A DNA stretch of 64,000 nt from Ruegeria marina (GTDB lineage Bacteria; Pseudomonadota; Alphaproteobacteria; Rhodobacterales; Rhodobacteraceae): NCBI RefSeq assembly GCF_900101475.1, contig NZ_FMZV01000010.1, forward strand, positions 62,001 to 126,000, given 5' to 3'. Within the stretch, counting starts at the first letter, position 1; every line of letters starts with the position of its first letter. The notes under the pieces are model-generated. The model searched no databases. It was not told the DNA's origin and saw only the letters and a program-made list of their open reading frames with translations. Positions 479 through 20,710 of this stretch are shown one piece after another. The position numbers and the translations under genes are program-made.

Positions 479-1804
479 TCAGGCCAGCATGACCATCGGA
501 TTTTCCAGGTTGTCGACGATTGCCTGCAACAGTTGCGCGCCGAGCGCCCCGTCGATCACCCGGTGATCCACCGACATGGTCACCGACATGACGGTGGCCA
601 CGGTCAATTCGCCATCGGCGCCGACCACGGGCTTCTTGACTCCGCTGCCGACCGCCAGGATGCCCGCGTGCGGCGGGTTCACGATGGCGTCGAAATTGTC
701 GATCCCGTACATGCCGAGGTTCGAGATGGCGAAGGTGCCGCCCTGGTATTCATGCGGTGCCAGCTTGCGGTCGCGGGCGCGGGCGGCGAGATCCTTCATC
801 TCGGTCGAGAGCGCCGAGAGCGACTTCATGTCGGCATCCTTGAGCACCGGGGTGAAGAGGCCGCCTTCGATGGCGACCGCCACGGCCACGTCCGAGGGTT
901 TGAGTTGCAGCACCCGGTCGCCGGCCCAGACCGCGTTGCAGGCCGGCACCTGCTGAAGCGCGTTGGCGACCGCCTTGATGATGAAGTCGTTGACGCTCAG
1001 TTTGACGCCGCGCCCTTCGAGCTGCTTGTTCAGCTGCGCGCGGAACTTCATCAGCGCATCCAGCTTGATGTCGCGGCGCAGGTAGAAATGCGGAATGGTC
1101 TGCTTGGCCTCGGACAGGCGCGCGGCAATGGTCTTGCGCATGCCGTCGAGTTTGACTTCTTCGTAGGCGCGGCCTTCGTACATGCGGGCGACCATGTCGG
1201 CGCTGGGGCCGCTGGGGGCCGCAGCCGGGGCGGCAGGCGCCGCGGCAGGGGTTGCTGCGGGTGCCGCAGCCTGCGCAGGCGCCGCAGCAGGCGCGGTTGC
1301 CCCGATCACATCCGCCTTGACGATGCGTCCATGCGGGCCGGAGCCCGCGATCTGTGTCAGGTCTAACCCCTTGTCGGCGGCAATCCGGCGTGCCAGCGGC
1401 GAGGCGAAGACGCGGCCGCCATCGGCGGCCTTCGGCGCGGCCGGGACCGGGGCCGGTGCGGGGGTGGCTGCGGGCGCCTCGGACGCTGCAGGGGCGGCCT
1501 CGTTGCCCGCGGCGGCGGCCGGGGCCGCCTTCGGTGCGCTGGGGATGTCGCCCGCGCTTTCACCCTCTTCCAGCAGAACCGCGATGGGGGTGTTTACCTT
1601 GACCCCTTCGGTGCCCTCGGGCACCAGGATTTTGCCGACCACGCCTTCGTCGACGGCTTCGAACTCCATCGTCGCCTTGTCGGTTTCGATTTCGGCCAGC
1701 AGGTCGCCCGAGGAGACGGTGTCGCCTTCCTTGACCAGCCATTTCGCCAGAGTGCCTTCCTCCATGGTCGGAGAGAGGGCGGGCATCAGGATTTCGGTGG
1801 GCAT
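479..1804 (-). CDS. pdhC: Dihydrolipoamide acetyltransferase (E2) of pyruvate dehydrogenase
   Basis: E2 core of the PDH complex: it takes the acetyl group from E1 on a swinging lipoyl arm and passes it to CoA. The 441 residues hold one lipoyl domain (1-78, lipoyl lysine K43 in ETDKATMEF), an Ala/Pro-rich linker, a peripheral subunit-binding domain (about 131-167, [11 protein letters not shown]...GRIVKADV), a second Ala/Pro linker and the catalytic domain (about 213-441) ending with the active-site DHRVIDG motif (H414, D418). The ATG is preceded by GTAAGGAG and lies 12 bp after the pdhB stop, so it is the last gene of pdhA-pdhB-pdhC. Its lipoyl domain is almost the same as that of the neighbouring E1-beta. 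Confidence 0.97.
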
Positions 1805-4230: not shown

Positions 4231-4248
4231 TAGTTTAGCATTAAACTA
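4231..4248 (-). promoter_or_regulatory. Palindromic operator candidate upstream of pdhA
   Basis: On the pdhA strand this reads TAGTTTAATGCTAAACTA: two perfect 7-bp arms around a 4-bp spacer, ending 24 bp before the pdhA start. The same 18-mer with one base changed in the spacer lies before lpd (19266-19283). The position in the leader or promoter fits a repressor site. The cognate regulator is not identifiable from the window. Confidence 0.7.
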
Positions 4249-4317
4249 TTAAATAGAGCATTTGCGCGCCTATGGCGAGAGGTAATATGACGCGGCGTAA
4301 ATCGGCAGACAGATGCA

Positions 4318-4792: not shown

Positions 4793-5725
4793 TCACGTGA
4801 CAGGAAGGAGCACATTGGACATTTCCTCGCGAATGACCTGTCTCATTAGATCGGTGAACCTGTCGATCGCGGGTGGTTTGCCACTTGCGGCCCGCCAGGC
4901 CAACCCGACGGTCCGGTGCATTGCCGGGCGCAGCGGACGTGTCGTCACGTCGGCCTGGCGGGCACGGACTTCGGAGGCCACATAGAGAGCAGGCAGCAGT
5001 GTGATACCCATTCCCAGAGACACCATCTGGCGCAAGGCGTCCAGACTGGTGCCCTCGAACTCCGTGCTGAGATGGGCACCCGCGTTCTGGCACAGGACTT
5101 GAATCTGCCGATGGAGGGCATAGGCGGGGCTGAGGCTCAACATGGTTTCACCGGCAAGATCGAATTGCCGGACCTGGCCGGCGGCAGCCAGGCGATGATC
5201 CGGATCGACGGCCAGTTCCAGGGGTTCGCGGAAGAGGGCTGCCACCTTGATGTCGTCGCGCCCAACCGGCAACTGGGTCAATATCATGTCATAGCGACCT
5301 GCAACCAGATCCTCGGTCAGTTCCTGTGGCGCCCCGTCCCGGATCGCCAGTTTCAACTTTGGAAATTGCCTGTGCAGTTGCCGCAGGACGCGCGGCAGCA
5401 GATAGGGACCTATGGTCGGTGTCGACCCAAGCCGCAGGGTACCGCTCATGTTGTCCCGCATCGGGCTGGTATAAAGGGTCAGCGCGTCGACCTCGCGCAG
5501 GATTCGCGCGACCAGTTCCGAAACGTCGCGGCCTTCAGGCGTCAGGATCAGGCCGCTGCGGCGGCGCTCGATCAGCCGCGCACCGATCGCCTTTTCCAGC
5601 GCGGCGATCTGGAGGCTGAGCGAGGGCTGGCTGATCCCCAGGCTGCGCGCGGCCCGCCGATATTGGCCAGCGGCCACCAGGGTCGAGAAATAGGTGAGTT
5701 GGCGCAGGGTGATATCCGGGGGCAT
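4793..5725 (-). CDS. OxyR-like LysR regulator lacking the peroxidatic cysteine
   Basis: LysR-type regulator of 310 residues: winged HTH at about 5-62 (QYRRAARSLGISQPSLSLQI) and a periplasmic-binding-like effector domain. Alignment by eye with E. coli OxyR is strong (GPYLLP at 106-111; TSLDALRQMVSLGMGITLLP against TSLETLRNMVAAGSGITLLP). At the redox centre the peroxide-reactive Cys199 of OxyR corresponds to Ala203, while the Cys208 counterpart is kept (Cys212, same 9-residue spacing). It is therefore probably not a classic peroxide switch. The ATG has GAGGA just upstream. An ATAG-N7-CTAT site (5741-5755) lies 15 bp before the start, suggesting autoregulation. It diverges from a DUF465 gene. 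Confidence 0.88.
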   Translation of the reverse strand: MPPDITLRQLTYFSTLVAAGQYRRAARSLGISQPSLSLQIAALEKAIGARLIERRRSGLILTPEGRDVSELVARILREVDALTLYTSPMRDNMSGTLRLGSTPTIGPYLLPRVLRQLHRQFPKLKLAIRDGAPQELTEDLVAGRYDMILTQLPVGRDDIKVAALFREPLELAVDPDHRLAAAGQVRQFDLAGETMLSLSPAYALHRQIQVLCQNAGAHLSTEFEGTSLDALRQMVSLGMGITLLPALYVASEVRARQADVTTRPLRPAMHRTVGLAWRAASGKPPAIDRFTDLMRQVIREEMSNVLLPVT

Positions 5726-19112: not shown

Positions 19113-19265
19113 CGTTGAAACCTCGGCTTGGGAATGGAACCAGTTTCCTCCTATCCAGTTCTAGCGAAACCGGGGCCAAGCGTATAGGCTTGACCATGAC
19201 GGGTTCACTGGGTGCCCCTGCGTCAAATATGTCGCGGAACGCTGTTGTTGAAGTCGTTTAAAGAT

Positions 19266-19283
19266 TAGTTTAATGGTAAACTA
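19266..19283 (+). promoter_or_regulatory. Palindromic operator candidate upstream of lpd, twin of the pdhA site
   Basis: TAGTTTAATGGTAAACTA: the same 7-bp arms and 4-bp spacing as at pdhA, with one base different in the spacer and the same orientation relative to the gene. It lies 32 bp before the lpd ATG. A possible promoter, TTGAAG (19248-19253), 17 bp, TAATGG (19271-19276), would place the operator across the -10 element. Confidence 0.7.
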
Positions 19284-19315: not shown

Positions 19316-20710
19316 ATGGCTGCACAATCCTATGACGTGATCGTAATCGGTGCCGGACCGGGGGGCTATGTCGCCGCTATCCGCGCGGCGCAACTGGGGC
19401 TCAAGGCCTGTGTGGTCGAGCGCGAGCATCTGGGCGGCATCTGCCTGAACTGGGGCTGCATCCCGACCAAGGCGCTGCTGCGCTCCTCCGAGGTGTTCCA
19501 CCTGATGGAGCGCGCCAAGGAATTCGGGCTGAAGGCCGACAACATCGGCTATGATCTCGACGCTGTGGTCAAACGCTCGCGCGGGGTGGCCAAGCAGCTG
19601 TCCTCGGGCATCGGCCACCTGATGAAGAAGAACAAGATCGACGTGGTGATGGGCGCGGCGACGATCCCGGCCAAGGGCAAGGTCTCGGTCAAGACCGACA
19701 AGGGCACGCAGGATCTGACCGCCAAGAACATCGTTCTGGCCACCGGCGCCCGCGCCCGTGAATTGCCGGGGCTCGAGGCCGATGGCGATCTGGTCTGGAC
19801 CTACAAGCACGCGCTGCAACCGGTGCGGATGCCCAAGAAATTGCTCGTCATCGGCTCGGGCGCCATCGGCATTGAATTCGCCAGCTTCTACAACACGCTG
19901 GGTTCCGATACGACCGTGGTCGAGGTGATGGACCGTGTTCTGCCGGTGGAAGACGCGGAAATCAGCGCCTTTGCCAAGAAGAGCTTTGTCAAGCAAGGCA
20001 TGAAGATCATGGAGAAATCCATGGTCAAGCAGCTGGATCGAGGCAAGGGCAAGGTGACCGCTCATATCGAGACCGGCGGCAAGGTCGAGAAGATGGAATT
20101 CGACACGGTGATCAGCGCTGTGGGCATTGTCGGCAACGTGGAGAACCTCGGGCTCGAGGCGCTGGGGGTCAAGATCGACCGCACCCATGTGGTGACCGAC
20201 GCCTATTGCCGGACCGGGGTCGAGGGGCTTTATGCCATTGGCGACATCGCCGGCGCGCCCTGGCTGGCGCACAAGGCCAGCCACGAGGGCGTCATGGTGG
20301 CCGAGCTGATCGCGGGCAAACACGCCCACCCGGTCAAACCCGAAAGCATCGCGGGCTGCACCTATTGCCACCCGCAGGTGGCATCGGTCGGCTATACCGA
20401 GGCCAAGGCCAAGGAACTGGGCTACGACATCAAGGTCGGACGCTTCCCCTTCATCGGCAATGGCAAGGCGATCGCGCTCGGCGAGGCCGAAGGCATGGTC
20501 AAGACCATTTTCGACGCCAAGACCGGCGAGCTCTTGGGCGCACATATGGTCGGCGCCGAGGTGACCGAGATGATCCAGGGCTATGTGGTGGGCCGCCAGC
20601 TGGAGACCACCGAAGAGGACCTGATGCATACCGTCTTCCCGCATCCGACCCTGAGCGAGATGATGCACGAAAGTGTGCTCGACGCTTATGGGCGCGTTAT
20701 TCACATGTGA
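19316..20710 (+). CDS. lpd: Dihydrolipoyl dehydrogenase (E3)
   Basis: FAD flavoprotein that reoxidises dihydrolipoamide with NAD+ in 2-oxoacid dehydrogenase complexes. The 464 residues have the FAD-binding GAGPGGYVAAIRAAQ (12-26), the redox-active disulfide GGICLNWGCIPTKALL (Cys43, Cys48), the NAD-binding IGSGAIGIEFASFY, the second FAD motif YAIGDIAG and the C-terminal HPHPTLSEMMHE with the catalytic His-Glu pair. It is unlinked to the pdhABC operon but shares its palindromic operator, so I infer that this is the E3 of the pyruvate complex rather than of another dehydrogenase. It ends before a strong terminator. Confidence 0.96.
   Translation: MAAQSYDVIVIGAGPGGYVAAIRAAQLGLKACVVEREHLGGICLNWGCIPTKALLRSSEVFHLMERAKEFGLKADNIGYDLDAVVKRSRGVAKQLSSGIGHLMKKNKIDVVMGAATIPAKGKVSVKTDKGTQDLTAKNIVLATGARARELPGLEADGDLVWTYKHALQPVRMPKKLLVIGSGAIGIEFASFYNTLGSDTTVVEVMDRVLPVEDAEISAFAKKSFVKQGMKIMEKSMVKQLDRGKGKVTAHIETGGKVEKMEFDTVISAVGIVGNVENLGLEALGVKIDRTHVVTDAYCRTGVEGLYAIGDIAGAPWLAHKASHEGVMVAELIAGKHAHPVKPESIAGCTYCHPQVASVGYTEAKAKELGYDIKVGRFPFIGNGKAIALGEAEGMVKTIFDAKTGELLGAHMVGAEVTEMIQGYVVGRQLETTEEDLMHTVFPHPTLSEMMHESVLDAYGRVIHM

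Follow-up and report, generated by a model that had tools for sequence, protein, structure and literature searches.

A palindrome at the pyruvate dehydrogenase and malic enzyme genes of Rhodobacteraceae and its probable MarR-family repressor

The described systems closest to the one analyzed here are PdhR of E. coli and the LacI-family central carbon regulator CceR, which we take to be RSP_1663 of R. sphaeroides. PdhR belongs to the GntR family and is described as a dedicated regulator of the pyruvate dehydrogenase (PDH) complex genes (PMC5343134). In R. sphaeroides, malic enzyme and PdhAB are predicted targets of RSP_1663, with a predicted motif, [AGT]GTT-N6-8-AAC[ACT], that falls into two clusters by spacer length, and experiments are called for in the same paper (PMC4344238); a link of malic enzyme and PdhAB genes to a GTT/AAC repeat is already in print there for one species. 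Small RNAs lower the PDH complex in R. sphaeroides and form a further layer of control (PMC7074977). In abundant marine bacteria, the choice among respiration, storage, and biosynthesis is made at the step from pyruvate to acetyl-CoA. Among the open-licence papers listed in literature searches, judged by titles and the beginnings of abstracts, none names a MarR-type regulator of PDH or malic enzyme in this group. Here, a palindrome is described before pdhABC, lpd, and maeB in a member of the Rhodobacteraceae, for which repression of all three by a MarR-family protein acting through that palindrome is, from the sequence comparisons below, the probable explanation.

The window is the whole stretch of Ruegeria marina DNA that was analyzed (64 kb), and it carries the palindrome twice. 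The (+) strand at 4231-4248 is TAGTTTAGCATTAAACTA, which on the minus strand, towards pdhA, reads TAGTTTAATGCTAAACTA; the copy at 19266-19283 reads TAGTTTAATGGTAAACTA towards lpd. The two are identical at 17/18 bases, as a sequence-only reading of this DNA had reported, and a search of the window for TAGTTTA-N4-TAAACTA with up to three mismatches finds these two matches only, against a shuffle mean of 0.03. To our knowledge, the palindrome is unlike the E. coli PdhR site. The identities of pdhA, pdhB, pdhC, and lpd come from NCBIfam equivalog models, all above cut-off, and the regulator gene nearest upstream of pdhA (window 4793-5725) is LysR/OxyR-like. The features of the window are as follows.

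479..1804, minus strand: pdhC, dihydrolipoamide acetyltransferase (E2); TIGR01349, 527.2 bits
1817..3199, minus strand: pdhB, pyruvate dehydrogenase E1 beta; NF008854, 837 bits
3214..4206, minus strand: pdhA, pyruvate dehydrogenase E1 alpha; TIGR03182, 515.5 bits
4231..4248, minus strand: predicted operator before pdhA, TAGTTTAATGCTAAACTA in gene orientation; the GTG start is 24 bp further
4250..4255, minus strand: putative pdhA -10 element, TATTTA, abutting the operator upstream; TAnnAn columns kept across 39 pdhA leaders
4273..4278, minus strand: putative pdhA -35 element, TCGCCA, 17 bp from the -10; TCGC in 22/39 leaders
19248..19253, plus strand: putative lpd -35 element, TTGAAG, 17 bp from TAATGG; TTG so spaced in 11/12 leaders
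19266..19283, plus strand: predicted operator before lpd, TAGTTTAATGGTAAACTA
19271..19276, plus strand: putative lpd -10 element, TAATGG, within the operator, from the leader alignment
19316..20710, plus strand: lpd, dihydrolipoyl dehydrogenase (E3); TIGR01350, 568.5 bits

The 4.99-Mb genome contains exactly three perfect copies of TAGTTTA-N4-TAAACTA, before pdhA, lpd, and maeB, and the earlier claim that the site is confined to the genes of one enzyme complex fails on the third of these.

Contig C29:176531-176548: third perfect site, 25 bp before the start of maeB

The maeB product is 757 aa long and is so named despite scoring 1016.6 bits against the NADP-dependent malic enzyme subfamily model, under its cut-off of 1178. 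The targets are the enzymes that take malate to pyruvate and pyruvate to acetyl-CoA. Beyond these perfect copies the genome has no site with one mismatch, a single site with two, and ten with three; since the reversed control pattern gives 43 matches at up to three mismatches, the imperfect sites as a group do not exceed chance. MarR genes adjoin 3 of the 11, and the two-mismatch site lies between a MarR gene and a match to salicylyl-CoA 5-hydroxylase (1013.8 bits, cut-off 1078). A relaxed core, GTTYAANNTTRAAC, has 22 matches in the genome at one mismatch, versus 11 for its control, and gives no new target, two of the further loci having been inspected. Divergently from maeB lies a gene for a protein with matches to cupin domains (L015:7343-8458, minus strand), an arrangement also seen in one relative (L024).

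Perfect sites are present in 92 of 198 Rhodobacteraceae genomes (197 genera), and the reversed-pattern control in 3. Eighty sites were examined (3 from this genome, 30 plus 7 from fetched family loci, and 40 of 45 further family sites among the matches listed), of which 39 precede pdhA, 24 maeB, 12 lpd, and 1 aceE; 4 are located elsewhere, three of them on stretches of 34-37% GC. The aceE site (L059, genome G215) matters because AceE is an E1 of another type than PdhA; G215 also has a perfect site before pdhA (L054), and its aceE piece scores 782.5 bits versus a cut-off of 859.9 set for the full length. Outside the family the site is not enriched, being present in 7 of 381 genomes versus 15 with the control pattern, and none of these seven loci is at pdhA, lpd, maeB, or aceE. 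The palindrome is almost certainly a dedicated operator for the pyruvate/acetyl-CoA node. A factor dedicated to PDH, as the sequence-only reading had proposed, is thus borne out in its dedication, which is well supported by the 76 of 80 perfect family sites preceding pdhA, lpd, maeB, or aceE, and not in its restriction to PDH, since malic enzyme is included. The scan of the genome and its relatives revealed neither many copies at unrelated genes nor an absence of the palindrome before pdhA and lpd in close relatives.

Six of the seven loci outside the family have a GC content above 50%, and five of these six have a MarR gene near the site. Their neighborhoods include the following.

L047: MarR start at the site; hydroxylase gene resembling salicylyl-CoA 5-hydroxylase (by eye)
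L049, L051, and L052: FMN oxidoreductase gene, then MarR; Acg family by model in L049 and by eye in L051 and L052
L050: same kind of hydroxylase as in L047; no MarR gene within the 3-kb locus
L058: SDR-like gene (by eye), then MarR

The MarR protein encoded beside the perfect site of L051 (genome G320) has one close relative in the R. marina genome (49% identity, E 1.9e-22; the next is at E 9.7e-5), and those of L049 and L052 also align with this candidate, with a common stretch VT[RK]GA[MI]TNTL. At E <= 0.01 the MarR proteins of L047 and L058 do not match the candidate. Several MarR types therefore share this operator class, and the operator by itself does not point to any one of them. One operator word is common to several MarR lineages at loci of unrelated functions in other alphaproteobacterial families.

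Contig C30:134428-134904, minus strand, outside the window: candidate marR, last gene of a comF-grx-nit-marR cluster

In this genome grx is called by model, nit by a match below cut-off, and comF by eye, and ubiG lies past the cluster on the opposite strand. Across 80 named marR loci from Ruegeria, Roseovarius, Leisingera, and other Rhodobacteraceae, comF and grx matches are present in 80/80, nit in 79, and ubiG in 74. The candidate matches MarR domain models PF12802 (38.6 bits, cut-off 27) and PF01047 (26.3 bits, cut-off 24.6), with the MarR winged helix-turn-helix present. For an ortholog 90% identical to the candidate, the AF2 monomer model (pLDDT 90.6) shows the MarR fold, the winged helix lying between N- and C-terminal helices, and its best PDB matches are MarR-type proteins, MarR-DNA complexes included. 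Autoregulation as a route to the factor failed: none of the 80 named loci has a perfect site within about 6 kb of marR, which is therefore not autoregulated through the palindrome. The evidence nonetheless points, with considerable confidence on our part, to this MarR as the protein that would bind the palindrome. The sequence-only reading had put no name to the factor.

Site and candidate were compared across genomes with one other MarR as the control, and leaders were compared for pdhA and maeB. The candidate is found at E <= 1e-12 in 173 of 198 family genomes, and perfect sites are present in 90 of these 173 versus 2 of the 25 without it; G033 (74% complete) and G096 (77% complete) have sites and no MarR match. 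Among genomes at least 90% complete (n = 175), the site is present in 83/156 with the MarR and 0/19 without (Fisher p 1.8e-6, kinship ignored); among the 83, G172 matches the MarR more weakly (7e-38). The control MarR is present in 62/198 genomes and in only 39 of the 83 site-bearing complete genomes, yet reaches p 2e-4, and such p-values are inflated because the genomes share ancestry. More telling is that every complete site-bearing genome of the sample has the candidate MarR. Eight of the 19 MarR-less complete genomes (G017, G047, G054, G066, G071, G094, G102, and G127) have no PdhA match at E <= 1e-80. These eight may use an AceE-type complex, in which case loss of the regulator would be linked to replacement of its target.

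Degenerate sites extend the association to genomes without a perfect copy. Leaders were sampled from 60 such genomes at least 90% complete, comprising all 19 that are MarR-less, 4 with a distant match, and 37 of 69 that are MarR-bearing. PdhA was found in 49 of the 60. Two of these were dropped, G085 for a gene at the end of its contig and G162 for offering only a 44% relative, which left 47 leaders to read; the PdhA of G170, which is in the set, is only 57% identical. At least 10 of 14 arm bases are matched before pdhA in 36/36 MarR-bearing, 2/9 MarR-less, and 0/2 distant-match genomes, compared with 29 of 940 trials with shuffled leaders; the MarR-less exceptions are G195 (12/14) and G167 (10/14). 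Before maeB, at least 11 of 14 are matched in 25/37 MarR-bearing genomes, leaving 12 without a maeB site, and in 0/17 MarR-less and 0/5 distant-match loci (shuffled leaders, 5/1180); in this set G194 is counted twice, G102 and G195 are left out, and G054 contributes a relative at 46% and a leader of 230 bases. Fisher p values for leader sites against MarR are 4e-8 (pdhA) and 6e-8 (maeB), both inflated by shared ancestry. The four MarR-less rows of a 51-row PdhA tree are scattered over four places. Explaining the label takes 4 changes; at least 2 are required by branches with good support, overall support being poor.

The anatomy of the sites suggests how a bound protein would act. In 61 degenerate sites TT (positions 4-5) and AA (14-15) are invariant and positions 3, 7, 12, and 16 are each altered in a single site; 74 of the 76 perfect sites have A as the first base of the spacer in gene orientation. 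Sites mostly end 15-33 bp before the start codon, and in the two pdhA cases with a negative distance the start codon had been placed by aligning the protein with that of the window. From the leader alignments we infer promoter positions at two of the targets. At lpd, TTG stands exactly 17 bp before TAAYR in 11/12 leaders and TAAYR is inside the site; at pdhA, TCGC stands 30 bp before the site in 22/39 leaders, and a TAnnAn element then lies directly before the site. No clear promoter pattern like these is seen in maeB leaders, and a generic promoter scan finds nothing at the operators and gives a single weak hit, some 200 bp upstream of the pdhA site. The TCGC element (window 4273-4279) was not seen as conserved at lpd or maeB; it is read as a -35 and could be the site of another regulator. 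Because the sites overlap the putative -10 and start region, a bound protein would block polymerase, and the palindrome-bound protein is likely a repressor; given binding, we have good confidence in repression rather than activation.

Whether the protein is the MarR candidate has to be weighed against other binders. LacI operators have an AACGTT-like centre, and the N4 spacer here often gives one, as would suit sites belonging to CceR. That reading, which is unlikely, would follow the published prediction for RSP_1663 (PMC4344238), and the palindrome here is AGTT-N8-AACT; MaeB is also lower after cceR deletion in P. denitrificans, an effect that may be indirect (PMC11323563). Against it, MarR-less G127 and G085 keep N6-spaced sites at gap and pyk and have maeB leaders without an N8 site. 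When TGTTANCGNTAACA, presumably a fair consensus for CceR-type sites, is used as the exact N6 palindrome, the R. marina genome has seven matches at up to one mismatch, five of them (by eye) before gap, two zwf genes, pyk, and eno, and none at pdhA, lpd, or maeB; the other two (L196 and L197) are at other genes. This N6 pattern is not sharply above control within the genome (7 versus 6 at one mismatch, 2 versus 0 perfect); perfect matches occur in 24 of 61 genomes versus 8 with the control, and among 23 N6 loci retrieved from other genomes of the family, 9 have gap, pyk, or eno and none has PdhA, Lpd, or MaeB. CceR was set aside as the binder on two grounds, that N6 sites stand at other genes of the same genome and that N8 sites track the MarR. 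As an observation in its own right, the TGTTANCGNTAACA-like palindromes of the R. marina genome (L191-L195) would make up a CceR-type glycolysis regulon apart from the PDH sites.

Less probable again is that some other factor, a different MarR or a CRP/FNR-type protein with N4-spaced half-sites, binds the palindrome and merely shares the distribution of the candidate. Several MarR types have this operator class and 24 matches in the R. marina genome exceed the MarR Pfam cut-off, but only the candidate among them is close to the L051 MarR, and the single other MarR profiled is missing from 44 of the 83 site-bearing genomes. FnrL and RedB affect pdhA, pdhB, and lpdA1 in R. capsulatus, but these effects are called indirect in the same source (PMC9603517). 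Action of the palindrome as RNA, through a leader hairpin, is highly improbable: the three sites can form hairpins of 7-9 bp (-3.9 to -5.0 kcal/mol, z -2.5 to -4.1), but these are weak, the putative lpd -10 lies inside the site, and in the 61 degenerate sites GTT and AAC are almost fixed while arm complementarity breaks (non-complementary, counting G-T as such, at arm position 6 in 29 and position 2 in 33), with weak two-sided compensation that exceeds shuffles only at arm positions 2 (p 0.03) and 7 (p 0.02) and not at 6.

With the MarR candidate as the preferred binder, the palindrome would be the operator of a repressor that presumably acts as a dimer. The bound dimer would cover the -10 element at lpd and the region just after the -10 at pdhA, blocking RNA polymerase at pdhABC, lpd, and maeB, such that the capacities for malate to pyruvate and for pyruvate to acetyl-CoA would be set together. 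Release of the MarR would presumably depend on a small-molecule ligand, perhaps pyruvate or a carboxylate related to it, that signals demand or the supply of substrate. If the assignment is true, it puts a gene name to a regulon of three promoters with a defined operator and provides a dedicated PDH switch from a regulator family other than that of PdhR; the attribution of these targets to RSP_1663 (CceR) in print would then need revision. For the Rhodobacteraceae as a whole, the comparisons suggest that the malate-pyruvate-acetyl-CoA step probably has a dedicated master repressor, MarR-type and inherited vertically, a functional counterpart of PdhR from another protein family, which would have been lost with its sites several times and have captured aceE in at least one genome.

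Set beside known systems, the candidate is like E. coli PdhR in being, as proposed, a dedicated regulator of PDH complex genes (PMC5343134), but it differs in family, in having malic enzyme as a core target, and in that its gene is unlinked to the PDH operon; judged alone, it is not a GntR/FadR-type regulator beside the operon as PdhR is, since it matches MarR models and lies on another contig. The likeness to CceR (RSP_1663) is that malic enzyme and PdhAB are predicted to be under GTT/AAC inverted repeats in R. sphaeroides (PMC4344238) as they would be here; the difference is that the N6 sites of the R. marina genome precede gap, zwf, pyk, and eno, whereas the PDH and malic enzyme sites are N8-spaced and track the MarR. 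In structure, the candidate shares its fold and winged helix-turn-helix with ST1710, Rv0880, MarR, and FabT, and the PDB matches to its model, at 15-27% identity among the best 50, carry no evidence here through their ligands or regulons. The MarR loci of other alphaproteobacteria have the same perfect TAGTTTA-N4-TAAACTA beside or near the MarR gene; the sites there are local, whereas the MarR of the Rhodobacteraceae would act at a distance, on central metabolism.
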